A model generated the notes under the pieces. It ran no database searches, was not told the origin of the DNA, and saw only the letters and a program-made list of their open reading frames with translations. The position numbers and the translations under genes are program-made. A stretch of 64,000 nucleotides of DNA from assembly GCA_947497475.1 (NCBI GenBank), contig CANMGS010000001.1:558001-622000 (forward strand), written 5' to 3'. The stretch comes from an uncultured Amylibacter sp. (GTDB taxonomy: Bacteria; Pseudomonadota; Alphaproteobacteria; Rhodobacterales; Rhodobacteraceae). Shown here piece after piece: positions 17,719-27,788 of this stretch (the first letter of the stretch is position 1; every line of letters begins with the position of its first letter).

Positions 17719-18642
17719 ATGTCAGCGACGCAACATCATACCCCTAAAACGTTTAAGAATTTCATCGAATTCTTACCTATGCTTTTGACAACAACCGTTG
17801 CACGCATATTGCCATATAAGTTGCGAAATCGTTTCTTTGCAAAAACTGGTGGGTTTATAATCAGTAAAGTTCCAAGTCTTCGCAAACGTGTTCTTGATGG
17901 TTTAAATCGTGTTTACCCAGACATGAATGATGATGAAAAAATAGAGCTTTGCAAAAGCATTGGTCAACAAGTTGGGCGGTCTTGGTCTGAAATCCTATTC
18001 AATGCAACTTACAAAAACCAACTTCCTCTTTTTCAAGCAAAAGAGCCAAATGCTGGACTCGCAATTTTAAAAGATGCTCAAGAAAAAGGGAAAGGCGTTA
18101 TTTTATTTTCAGGTCATTTTGGGCAGTTCGATGCCGTGCGCCACTACTTGAAATCCAAAGGGATGGAAACTGGAGCTGTTTACCGTGAAAATAACAATCC
18201 ATGGTACGATCCATATTTCCTTCACGGTTTAGAAGAAGCAGGGAAACCTATTATGGGGCGAGATGCATCTGGTCGCATGAAGATGGTAAAACATCTGCGT
18301 AAAGGTGGTTTTTTGGCCATGTTAGTTGATCAAAAATTCCAAGGCGGCGATTTGATCCCCTTTTTAGGGCACAACGCATTAACCAGTACAGTCCCTGCTC
18401 AATTAGCCCTACGTTATAATTTACCATTAATTCCTGCATTTGGCATCAGAGCTAAAAATGGTTTTAATATTGATATAGAATTTGGCGACCCTATTGAACA
18501 CTCTGATGCCATCACTATGACACGCCAAATGAATGATTGTCTTAGTGCAAAAATTCTAGAGCACCCCGATCAATGGTATTGGTTGCATCAACGCTGGAAA
18601 GATATCGACCTATATCATCCAGAGCATATTGATTCTAAATAA
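17719..18642 (+). CDS. LpxL/HtrB-type lysophospholipid acyltransferase
   Basis: GVILFSGHFGQFDAVRHYLKSKG (HxxxxD-like) ... GAVYRENNNPW...LVDQKFQGGDLIPFLG. Confidence 0.85.
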   Translation: MSATQHHTPKTFKNFIEFLPMLLTTTVARILPYKLRNRFFAKTGGFIISKVPSLRKRVLDGLNRVYPDMNDDEKIELCKSIGQQVGRSWSEILFNATYKNQLPLFQAKEPNAGLAILKDAQEKGKGVILFSGHFGQFDAVRHYLKSKGMETGAVYRENNNPWYDPYFLHGLEEAGKPIMGRDASGRMKMVKHLRKGGFLAMLVDQKFQGGDLIPFLGHNALTSTVPAQLALRYNLPLIPAFGIRAKNGFNIDIEFGDPIEHSDAITMTRQMNDCLSAKILEHPDQWYWLHQRWKDIDLYHPEHIDSK

Positions 18643-24912: not shown

Positions 24913-25227
24913 TTATTCAGCATCCAGCTTCGAATTCTTTTTCTGAACCTCTTCTGCCGTCCGCATCATCGTACGCACACCAGCAACAAAGCCCAATATT
25001 GTGAATATAATCATGAACCACGGCAAAGTGCCCGCCAGCGTATCAATCCCATATCCGATCCCGAACCCCAGCAGCAATCCTGCCACCAATTCGGTCACCA
25101 TCCGCCAGCCATGCTGGGCTTGTGAGATATGGCTTTCTTCGCGCGCTTCAGGTTCTTGCCCCTTCTTCGCAGCTGCCAGCCGTTTCTCTAATGCATCTAA
25201 ACGCTCGGGATCAGGGCCATCAGTCAT
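24913..25227 (-). CDS. atpI: AtpI family protein
   Basis: LVAGLLLGFGIGYGIDTLAGTLPWFMIIFTILGFVAGVRTMMR; first gene of the F0 operon. Confidence 0.9.
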   Translation of the reverse strand: MTDGPDPERLDALEKRLAAAKKGQEPEAREESHISQAQHGWRMVTELVAGLLLGFGIGYGIDTLAGTLPWFMIIFTILGFVAGVRTMMRTAEEVQKKNSKLDAE

Positions 25228-25331: not shown

Positions 25332-25512
25332 TTTCGTAAACTACTGTTTTTATGTGATTTTACCGACCTGCGACAGGTTTATCGCTAACGACAGACCACC
25401 GTATGCCGCCTTTCATGCATGAATCCATTCATTCAACCATTTGGTTGAAAATAAACTTGAACAAGTTAATCAGACCAATAAAACTCATCTTAATTACATC
25501 AGAGATATTTAA

Positions 25513-26451
25513 ATGAAAACTATAGCATTAGACCAAAACAAATGGATCGAACTTAGAGAAGCTATGCTTTATCCAAATGACAACATAGAAGTTTACGAAG
25601 TTTTAGAATACCTAATTCAAAGTGCTCAAAAAGGTAAGATACAGATCCCACTCCACTACAGTAATATTTATGAAACGTATAAGATATACGATACAGAAAG
25701 GCGCGAACCTTTATCATATATTCAGAGTGTTTTAAGCCAAGGAACCGTTTTCGTAGGTAGGAATATTCAACGTAAAATTGAAGTTCAAACATTGTTAAGA
25801 GATGCCTTCAACCTGCCTAAGGTTAACTCAAACGTAGACACTTTTACCTCTAAATTATTTTGGGAATCTGTAGGAACCAGAGAACTGTTAGGAGCTGAGT
25901 TTCTTACCGATAAAATTGTCTCCCTCACTCAAGAGAACCCTCAACTTGCTTTATTCACATATCTTAATGAGCCTGATGTTGAATTTCGCAACGCTGCCAT
26001 CCGAAAATATAGCAATGGTATTTCAGAACTTCTTAAGGATATTGAAAAACGGCGGCAATTTTACAAAGATCAATCGCTTTCGATGCGTCGAAGAATTTTA
26101 GGTGTTCATATCTGGATGGAAAACCAAGATCACTTTTGGGAAGAAGTTGATAGGCTTGGAATCTCGACTGAGCAATTTAAAAATTCTAACGATAGCTTAA
26201 AACGTGACCTTATAAGAAAAGTTCCAAGTTTAAACATAGAGCGAGAACTAACCCTCAAGTTAGAATCTGAAGACATAATATTGGTTGAAAATGATACTCG
26301 GGATATGATGTTTTTTTGTTCCACAATCCCAATATGCGATATTATTGTAGCGGAACGCCCATTCACTGAAAGAGCAAAGCAGGCAAACTTAGGAAAAGAA
26401 TATAAAACCGAATTGTTGACCAATTTAGGCGAATTATTACACGTAATTTAA
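25513..26451 (+). CDS. Hypothetical protein with PIN-like features, orphan
   Basis: 312-aa AT-rich ORF; N-terminal TIALDQNKWIEL, internal NIYETYK, C-terminal NDTRDMMFFCSTIPICDIIVAE give a D...E...D...D arrangement. Confidence 0.6.
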   Translation: MKTIALDQNKWIELREAMLYPNDNIEVYEVLEYLIQSAQKGKIQIPLHYSNIYETYKIYDTERREPLSYIQSVLSQGTVFVGRNIQRKIEVQTLLRDAFNLPKVNSNVDTFTSKLFWESVGTRELLGAEFLTDKIVSLTQENPQLALFTYLNEPDVEFRNAAIRKYSNGISELLKDIEKRRQFYKDQSLSMRRRILGVHIWMENQDHFWEEVDRLGISTEQFKNSNDSLKRDLIRKVPSLNIERELTLKLESEDIILVENDTRDMMFFCSTIPICDIIVAERPFTERAKQANLGKEYKTELLTNLGELLHVI

Positions 26452-26475
26452 ACAACCACATACGCTAAAGTTACT

Positions 26476-26546
26476 GGCCCGCTTGCGGGCCGCGCCCGAT
26501 CCTCCCCCACGGGAGGGCGCACTGCGCCCACCCTAATCTCGGGCGC
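26476..26546. repeat. GC-rich multi-hairpin intergenic element
   Basis: GGCCCGC-TT-GCGGGCC hairpin, then outer stem GCGCCCGA...TCGGGCGC enclosing CCTCCC/GGGAGG and GGGCGC/GCGCCC hairpins. Confidence 0.75.
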
Positions 26547-26579
26547 TACGTTGCATTTCTTCTAAATGGTTCGACAAAC

Positions 26580-27788
26580 TCAATATAAGTAATCCCGCGT
26601 CACAGGCACCGCTTGCTGATCCTTAGTGATCTGAAACTGGAACACCACCTGGCGGTCCAAACGGAATGTCAGCTCTGATGCGATTAAGTAATACCGCCAC
26701 ATCCGACAGAAGGTGTAATCGTAAATCTCCAGTACCTGATCCAAATTCGCCTCAAAACGTGCGCGCCAATCGCGCAGGGTGTCTGCATAATGAATGCGCC
26801 AGACTTCAATATCCGTGGTGATCAAATTTGCATCTTCGATCACAGGCAGCACCTCGGACATCGCGGGGCAATAGCCGCCTGGGAAAATATATTTCGCGAT
26901 CCATGGGCTGGTGATATTCGGTGGCGCACAACGACCAATCGTGTGGATCAACGCCACGCCATCAGGCTTCAGCAGCTTTTTCACATGTTCAAAATACTCT
27001 GCATAATGCGGCACGCCGACATGTTCGAACATGCCTACAGAAACGATACGGTCGAATTGTTCGGTGACATTGCGGTAGTCTTGCAAACGGAAATCAACGT
27101 GTGCCTCAAGCCCCGCTTCTGCTACACGCGCCTCTGCCACTTTGTGCTGTTCTTTGGAGAGTGTTACACCTACCACATCCACACCATAATCTTTGGCCAA
27201 AGTCAGCCCCATACCGCCCCAGCCACAACCGATGTCTAAAACACGCATGCCCTTTTCCAATCGCAGCTTACCAGCGATATGCGCCTTCTTCTGCGCTTGC
27301 GCCATTTCCAGCGTGTCATTGAGTGTTTTGTAATAGCCGCAGGAATATTGTTTATCGTCATCTAGAAACAGATCGTACAGCTGGTCAGACAGATCATAGT
27401 GATGTGCCACATTTTGCTGCGCACGTCCTACGGGATTGTGTTGGGAAATCTTGCGCAGGATTTTACGGGCAGACTGCATGAATTTCTGACCTGTGGTAGG
27501 ATTGTTAAATCGCTCTCCATTCCGTCCGAGGTTCAAGACAGCCAAGGATAAGAAACCATAAAGATCGTCATTTTTAATCGTCATCGACCCATTCATATAA
27601 GCCTCGCCAACAGCCATATCTGGGTTCATTAAAATCTTACGTGGCAGATCATCTTCGTGAAGCGTCACTTCTACCAGATCACCGCTGCCATCCCCTAAGC
27701 TTACCGAACTACCGTCATTCAAAGTGATCTTTAGAGATCCACGTTTGAATGATTTTGTTAGAAACGTTTTGAATAAACTATCCCACAT
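26580..27788 (-). CDS. Cyclopropane-fatty-acyl-phospholipid synthase family protein
   Basis: VLDIGCGWGGMGLTLAKDYGVDVVGVTLSKEQ...VGMFEHVGVPHYAEYF...FPGGYCPAMSEVLPVIE. Confidence 0.93.
   Translation of the reverse strand: MWDSLFKTFLTKSFKRGSLKITLNDGSSVSLGDGSGDLVEVTLHEDDLPRKILMNPDMAVGEAYMNGSMTIKNDDLYGFLSLAVLNLGRNGERFNNPTTGQKFMQSARKILRKISQHNPVGRAQQNVAHHYDLSDQLYDLFLDDDKQYSCGYYKTLNDTLEMAQAQKKAHIAGKLRLEKGMRVLDIGCGWGGMGLTLAKDYGVDVVGVTLSKEQHKVAEARVAEAGLEAHVDFRLQDYRNVTEQFDRIVSVGMFEHVGVPHYAEYFEHVKKLLKPDGVALIHTIGRCAPPNITSPWIAKYIFPGGYCPAMSEVLPVIEDANLITTDIEVWRIHYADTLRDWRARFEANLDQVLEIYDYTFCRMWRYYLIASELTFRLDRQVVFQFQITKDQQAVPVTRDYLY

Follow-up and report, generated by a model that had tools for sequence, protein, structure and literature searches.

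A candidate split-PIN immunity gene at the atpI-cfa site of an uncultured Amylibacter sp.

We report a 312-amino-acid (aa) protein, encoded in the genome of an uncultured Amylibacter sp., whose gene we propose (probability of roughly 0.6) to be a horizontally acquired single-gene immunity element specifying a split-PIN, metal-dependent RNase similar to the Escherichia coli defense protein DS-3. The gene lies within a stretch of 64,000 nucleotides (GenBank assembly GCA_947497475.1, contig CANMGS010000001.1, positions 558,001 to 622,000), which is called the window here and whose own numbering is used throughout. A one-gene immune element is the most likely reading because the protein has a predicted split PIN core and because its relatives are found on plasmids, in a phage, and beside anti-phage systems.

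The open reading frame (ORF) starts with ATG and occupies positions 25513 to 26451 of the forward strand, flanked by atpI (24913 to 25227) and cfa (26580 to 27788), both on the opposite strand. An earlier reading of the letters and ORF list (the original prediction) described a lone AT-rich gene between core operons, and coordinates and composition agree with that description; the GC content is 35.7%, and the GC3 of 31% is the lowest among the 45 window ORFs of at least 200 aa (mean, 43%; standard deviation, 5%). The motifs quoted at that time (LDQNKWIEL, IYETYK, and NDTRDMMFFCSTIPICDIIVAE) are all in the ORF, which we regard as a real protein since full-length homologs with 23 to 45% identity occur in unrelated bacteria. 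An obvious antitoxin partner had been reported as missing, and the ORF list of the window indeed holds no partner ORF beside the gene; with no adjoining antitoxin gene at the locus, assignment to the type II VapBC systems was rejected. No Rfam RNA was found in the locus, and promoter and terminator scans of it performed no better than shuffles. Elsewhere in the window, the ORF at 17719 to 18639 has the second lowest GC3 (0.32) and is another candidate for acquired DNA.

The gene is supported as recently acquired cargo, as had been proposed, by its composition, by the empty or alternatively filled slot in sibling genomes, and by its patchy distribution. In a blastn comparison with sibling genome G167, whose Cfa is 95% identical to that of the window genome, homology ended at 25460 and restarted at 26579 (the cfa stop), leaving a variable segment (25461 to 26578) that is replaced in G167 by unrelated sequence with an unrelated 110-aa ORF. 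The same slot holds two thioesterase-like ORFs in G163 (a label read from the sequence by eye, without a family search) and is nearly empty in G150. No split-PIN homolog was found in these three genomes, in the 149 other genomes of the family (1 of 150 carries the gene), or in 398 other genomes of the phylum, nor in a wider sweep around genome G300 (a small class, swept without a positive control). From the sibling slot contents and the absence from the searched genomes, we conclude that the site is a variable slot and the gene a rare one. A host RNA-processing or housekeeping nuclease might be expected next to core operons, where this gene sits, but absence from 149 of 150 family genomes and from the same site in siblings, together with the spread of homologs over plasmids, phage, and archaea, makes such a role exceedingly improbable, and a core housekeeping gene was rejected on these grounds.

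Three further observations concern the site itself. Within the genus, the atpI-cfa gap is a cargo hotspot (G167, G163, and G150; loci L043 to L045). A perfect palindrome, TTCAACCATTTGGTTGAA, lies at 25432 to 25449, where its exact match is unique in the genome; it is kept in G167, where it sits right on the border of the variable segment, about 200 bp upstream of atpI, and it may be an operator of the ATP synthase genes or a target for insertion. The 3' end of the cargo carries a dispersed repeat, a GC-rich intergenic element (26484 to 26547) that recurs in part at other places in the genome and on Phaeobacter and Leisingera plasmids.

The protein very probably adopts a PIN fold. AlphaFold2, run with an input alignment of 14 sequences, gave a model with a pLDDT of 91.8 and a pTM of 0.89, in which DSSP assigned β1 (residues 2 to 6), helices at 8 to 19 and 25 to 39, β2 (about 43 to 47), and helices at 49 to 57 and 61 to 75 to the N-terminal part, and a helix (259 to 271), β3 (277 to 279), a second helix (282 to 290), and β4 (300 to 302) to the C-terminal part, with helices in between (83 to 252). 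The model of a distant member (L013; about 17% identical) has the same order, β-α-α-β-α-α followed by α-β-α-β, and likewise carries an insert. Both members modeled with AlphaFold2 thus run β-α-α-β-α-α-(α)-α-β-α-β along the chain, which is the order of elements in the PIN fold. On the forward strand, the N-terminal half of the core (residues 1 to 75, β1-α1-α2-β2-α3-α4) is encoded at 25513 to 25737 and the C-terminal half (residues 259 to 312) at 26287 to 26448; they enclose an all-helical insertion (residues 83 to 252; 25759 to 26268) of about 170 residues, which is the least conserved stretch of the alignment and a candidate sensor or autoinhibitory region.

Structure and profile searches returned no significant score. 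When the window-protein model was compared with PDB and viral structures, Foldseek yielded chance matches only (root mean square deviation of >13 Å), with no PIN structure among them; for the L013 model, the best sensible match was VapC2 of Rickettsia felis (3zvk) (rank 2 to 3; E value of about 2; probability, 0.28; target TM-score, 0.40); neither member matched a solved PIN structure at an E value of <0.001. Alignment of the insert-free core to a small PF01850 profile with hhalign was not significant (P = 0.26). This lack of a significant fold or profile match is what would be expected if the protein had another α/β fold with PIN-like acidic residues by chance, for example, that of a different metal-dependent phosphodiesterase or of a nonenzymatic accessory protein. 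The order of elements, the invariance and spacing of the acidic positions, and the lead of VapC2 among the sensible matches to a distant member argue against such a fold, which we consider improbable. The structural check that accompanied the original prediction therefore came out in favor of a PIN-like order, with VapC2 best for one member, and fell short of a significant score; a model unlike PIN, named beforehand as counterevidence, is not what AlphaFold2 produced.

The acidic residues point to the same fold. Conservation was judged on 15 aligned sequences, seven of them homologs that tblastn had retrieved free of motif bias, because motif-based retrieval inflates the invariance of LDQNKWI, which is partly an artifact; in the tblastn-found homologs, D7 and W11 are constant and the Q, N, and K of this motif vary. 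Out of 48 D/E residues in the window protein, six are acidic in 15/15 sequences (D7, E54, E90, D261, D264, and E281), and five of these occupy the four metal-site positions of a PIN domain on the forward strand, namely, D7 at the end of β1 (25531 to 25533; D in 15/15), E54 in helix α3 after β2 (25672 to 25674; E in 15/15), D261 and D264 in an NDxxD motif at the start of a late helix (26293 to 26304; both D in 15/15), and E281 at the end of β3 (26353 to 26355; E or D in 15/15). The fourth position is D in one homolog, and in L049, it reads FTDK, like the VapC motif. The original prediction had placed this fourth residue at an Asp of the C-terminal string, and it is better read as E281. Its PIN-like idea held for the order of elements and for the invariant acidic positions in two divergent members; the spacing that it invoked did not hold, since some 200 residues separate the first acidic pair from the last, unlike the normal spacing of PIN domains, and we describe the core as a PIN core that an insertion has split.

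Within the last pair, the distance is conventional. The third and fourth acidic sites of split-PIN members are 17 to 20 residues apart, and the last two sites in VapC and FitB structures are 18 to 20 apart (18 in both VapC3, Asp9/Glu43/Asp99/Asp117, and FitB, Asp5/Glu42/Asp104/Asp122) (PMC5086665). The window protein resembles VapC (PF01850) in this spacing, in its D-E-D-D/E acidic sites, and in its strand and helix order; VapC is about 130 aa long and has a VapB partner, whereas the window protein has about 170 residues inserted and no partner, and there is no significant sequence or profile match between the two.

Homologs with 15 to 45% identity were identified in genomes of Roseibaca, Reyranella, Hyphomicrobiales, Geobacteraceae, Ideonella, Rhodanobacter, Nitrospira, Chloroflexi, Clostridium, Marinimicrobium, and Pseudomonas; on plasmids of Mesorhizobium, Bradyrhizobium, Rhodococcus, Mycobacterium, Arthrobacter, Streptomyces, Gordonia, and haloarchaea; and in the Pseudomonas filamentous phage PfAC03. 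Tailed viruses of haloarchaea share homology over the C-terminal part only. All annotated members are labeled "hypothetical protein," and no model in Pfam, NCBIfam, PADLOC, or PHROGs recognized the family beyond chance. For the window protein, there was no profile match to PF01850 or the other Pfam PIN families, nothing beyond chance in a PDB sequence search, and no match in PADLOC-DB at E values up to 1, with no consistent PADLOC-DB match among the 15 aligned members.

The defense-rich contexts of these homologs give strong, though unquantified, support to a defense role. On a Rhodococcus ruber plasmid (L047:3779-10972), drmA, drmB, and drmC are followed after 24 bp by a split-PIN homolog, which could serve DISARM as an accessory or be a stand-alone system embedded in the operon; the window gene, in contrast, has no DISARM neighbors. 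Genes for Gabija, AbiE, and a SIR2 protein lie no more than 12 kb from the Bradyrhizobium plasmid homolog, and other homologs lie near MzaBCDE genes and Vsr (Ideonella), pPIWI and AbiEii (Streptomyces), an RmrA-like gene (Chloroflexi), or an Mrr-like nuclease (Halomicrobium). The Mesorhizobium homolog is divergent from E2, E1 (ThiF), JAB, and patatin genes, and the Reyranella homolog is directly preceded, on its own strand, by an E1-JAB fusion and patatin. No recognized defense gene was seen close to the homologs at L004, L008, L049, and L073, and the window copy and its closest relative (Roseibaca; L002) each stand alone among housekeeping genes. The neighborhood survey suggested by the original prediction thus turned up DISARM, Gabija, Mza, E1-E2-JAB, pPIWI, and AbiE neighbors, and the opposing outcome that it named, homologs at syntenic core sites with a known function, did not arise.

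Operons of E1/JAB (with or without E2) plus a patatin phospholipase adjoin split-PIN homologs twice (L003:40-4073 and L016:6870-12963). No CD-NTase gene was recognized or annotated in these two operons, which may be a variant of ubiquitin-like defense.

In PfAC03, the homolog is ORF6 (L018:9086-10033), a split-PIN accessory gene of a Pf phage annotated as hypothetical. Accessory genes of Pf phages are mostly defensive, and ORF6 was left out of the published defense-gene count (PMC11878078). The plasmid and filamentous-phage locations of homologs, together with toxin-antitoxin genes near those of PfAC03 and L005, would also suit a split-PIN RNase that works by itself in the maintenance of mobile elements or in conflict between them (plasmid addiction or superinfection exclusion) and not in anti-phage immunity at large, with the chromosomal copy a stranded relic. 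Such a role seems unlikely, though it is the least improbable of the three alternatives considered here: no antitoxin partner was recognized, the DISARM-adjacent and Gabija-island placements suit defense better, and the window ORF is uninterrupted and retains every catalytic residue.

The precedent for an immunity element of this kind is DS-3 of DefensePredictor, a validated one-protein defense of E. coli with its PIN domain split between the N and C termini and with no antitoxin; its catalytic mutants lose defense, and its authors suggest autoinhibition until infection (PMC13092281). The window protein, by its model and acidic sites, likewise has a PIN core split between the N and C termini of a single protein and lacks an antitoxin, as in the published architecture; a DNA search found no E. 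coli relatives of the split-PIN gene. Protection by DS-3 was demonstrated experimentally in E. coli, whereas a defense role for the window protein is argued from its relatives and predicted structure. DS-5 of DefensePredictor is also a PIN nuclease in phage defense, as proposed here. The suggestion of an undescribed toxin, RNase, or single-gene defense element therefore fared well as to function, given the defense, plasmid, and phage contexts and the DS-3 precedent, and was only half right in "undescribed," because one-protein split-PIN defense is now published.

By analogy, we infer nuclease activity, an RNA substrate, autoinhibition by the insert, and an anti-phage role in the host. Residues 1 to 75 and 259 to 312 would form the PIN catalytic core, and the inserted helical domain (about 83 to 252) would most likely keep the enzyme inactive and sense infection. 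Once activated, the site formed by D7, E54, D261-D264, and E281 would cut RNA, perhaps tRNA or another RNA of translation, as VapC does. Cleavage would keep the phage from growing, perhaps through arrest of the cell, and no antitoxin would be needed.

We tentatively suggest, as a possibility rather than an expectation, that the homologs constitute an antitoxin-less split-PIN family of bacteria and haloarchaea, absent from current libraries and not homologous to DS-3, that acts both alone and as an extra effector embedded in DISARM and E1/E2/JAB-patatin operons and uses its variable insert as a sensor. The family would add a new member to one-protein split-PIN defense and, if DS-3 is unrelated in sequence, would be a separate split-PIN family. 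A scattered set of "hypothetical proteins" missed by PADLOC, Pfam, and NCBIfam thereby gains a candidate catalytic site and a likely role. How a toxic RNase that stands alone can stay silent without an antitoxin becomes a further question, and one that the conserved split core and the variable insert open to experiment.
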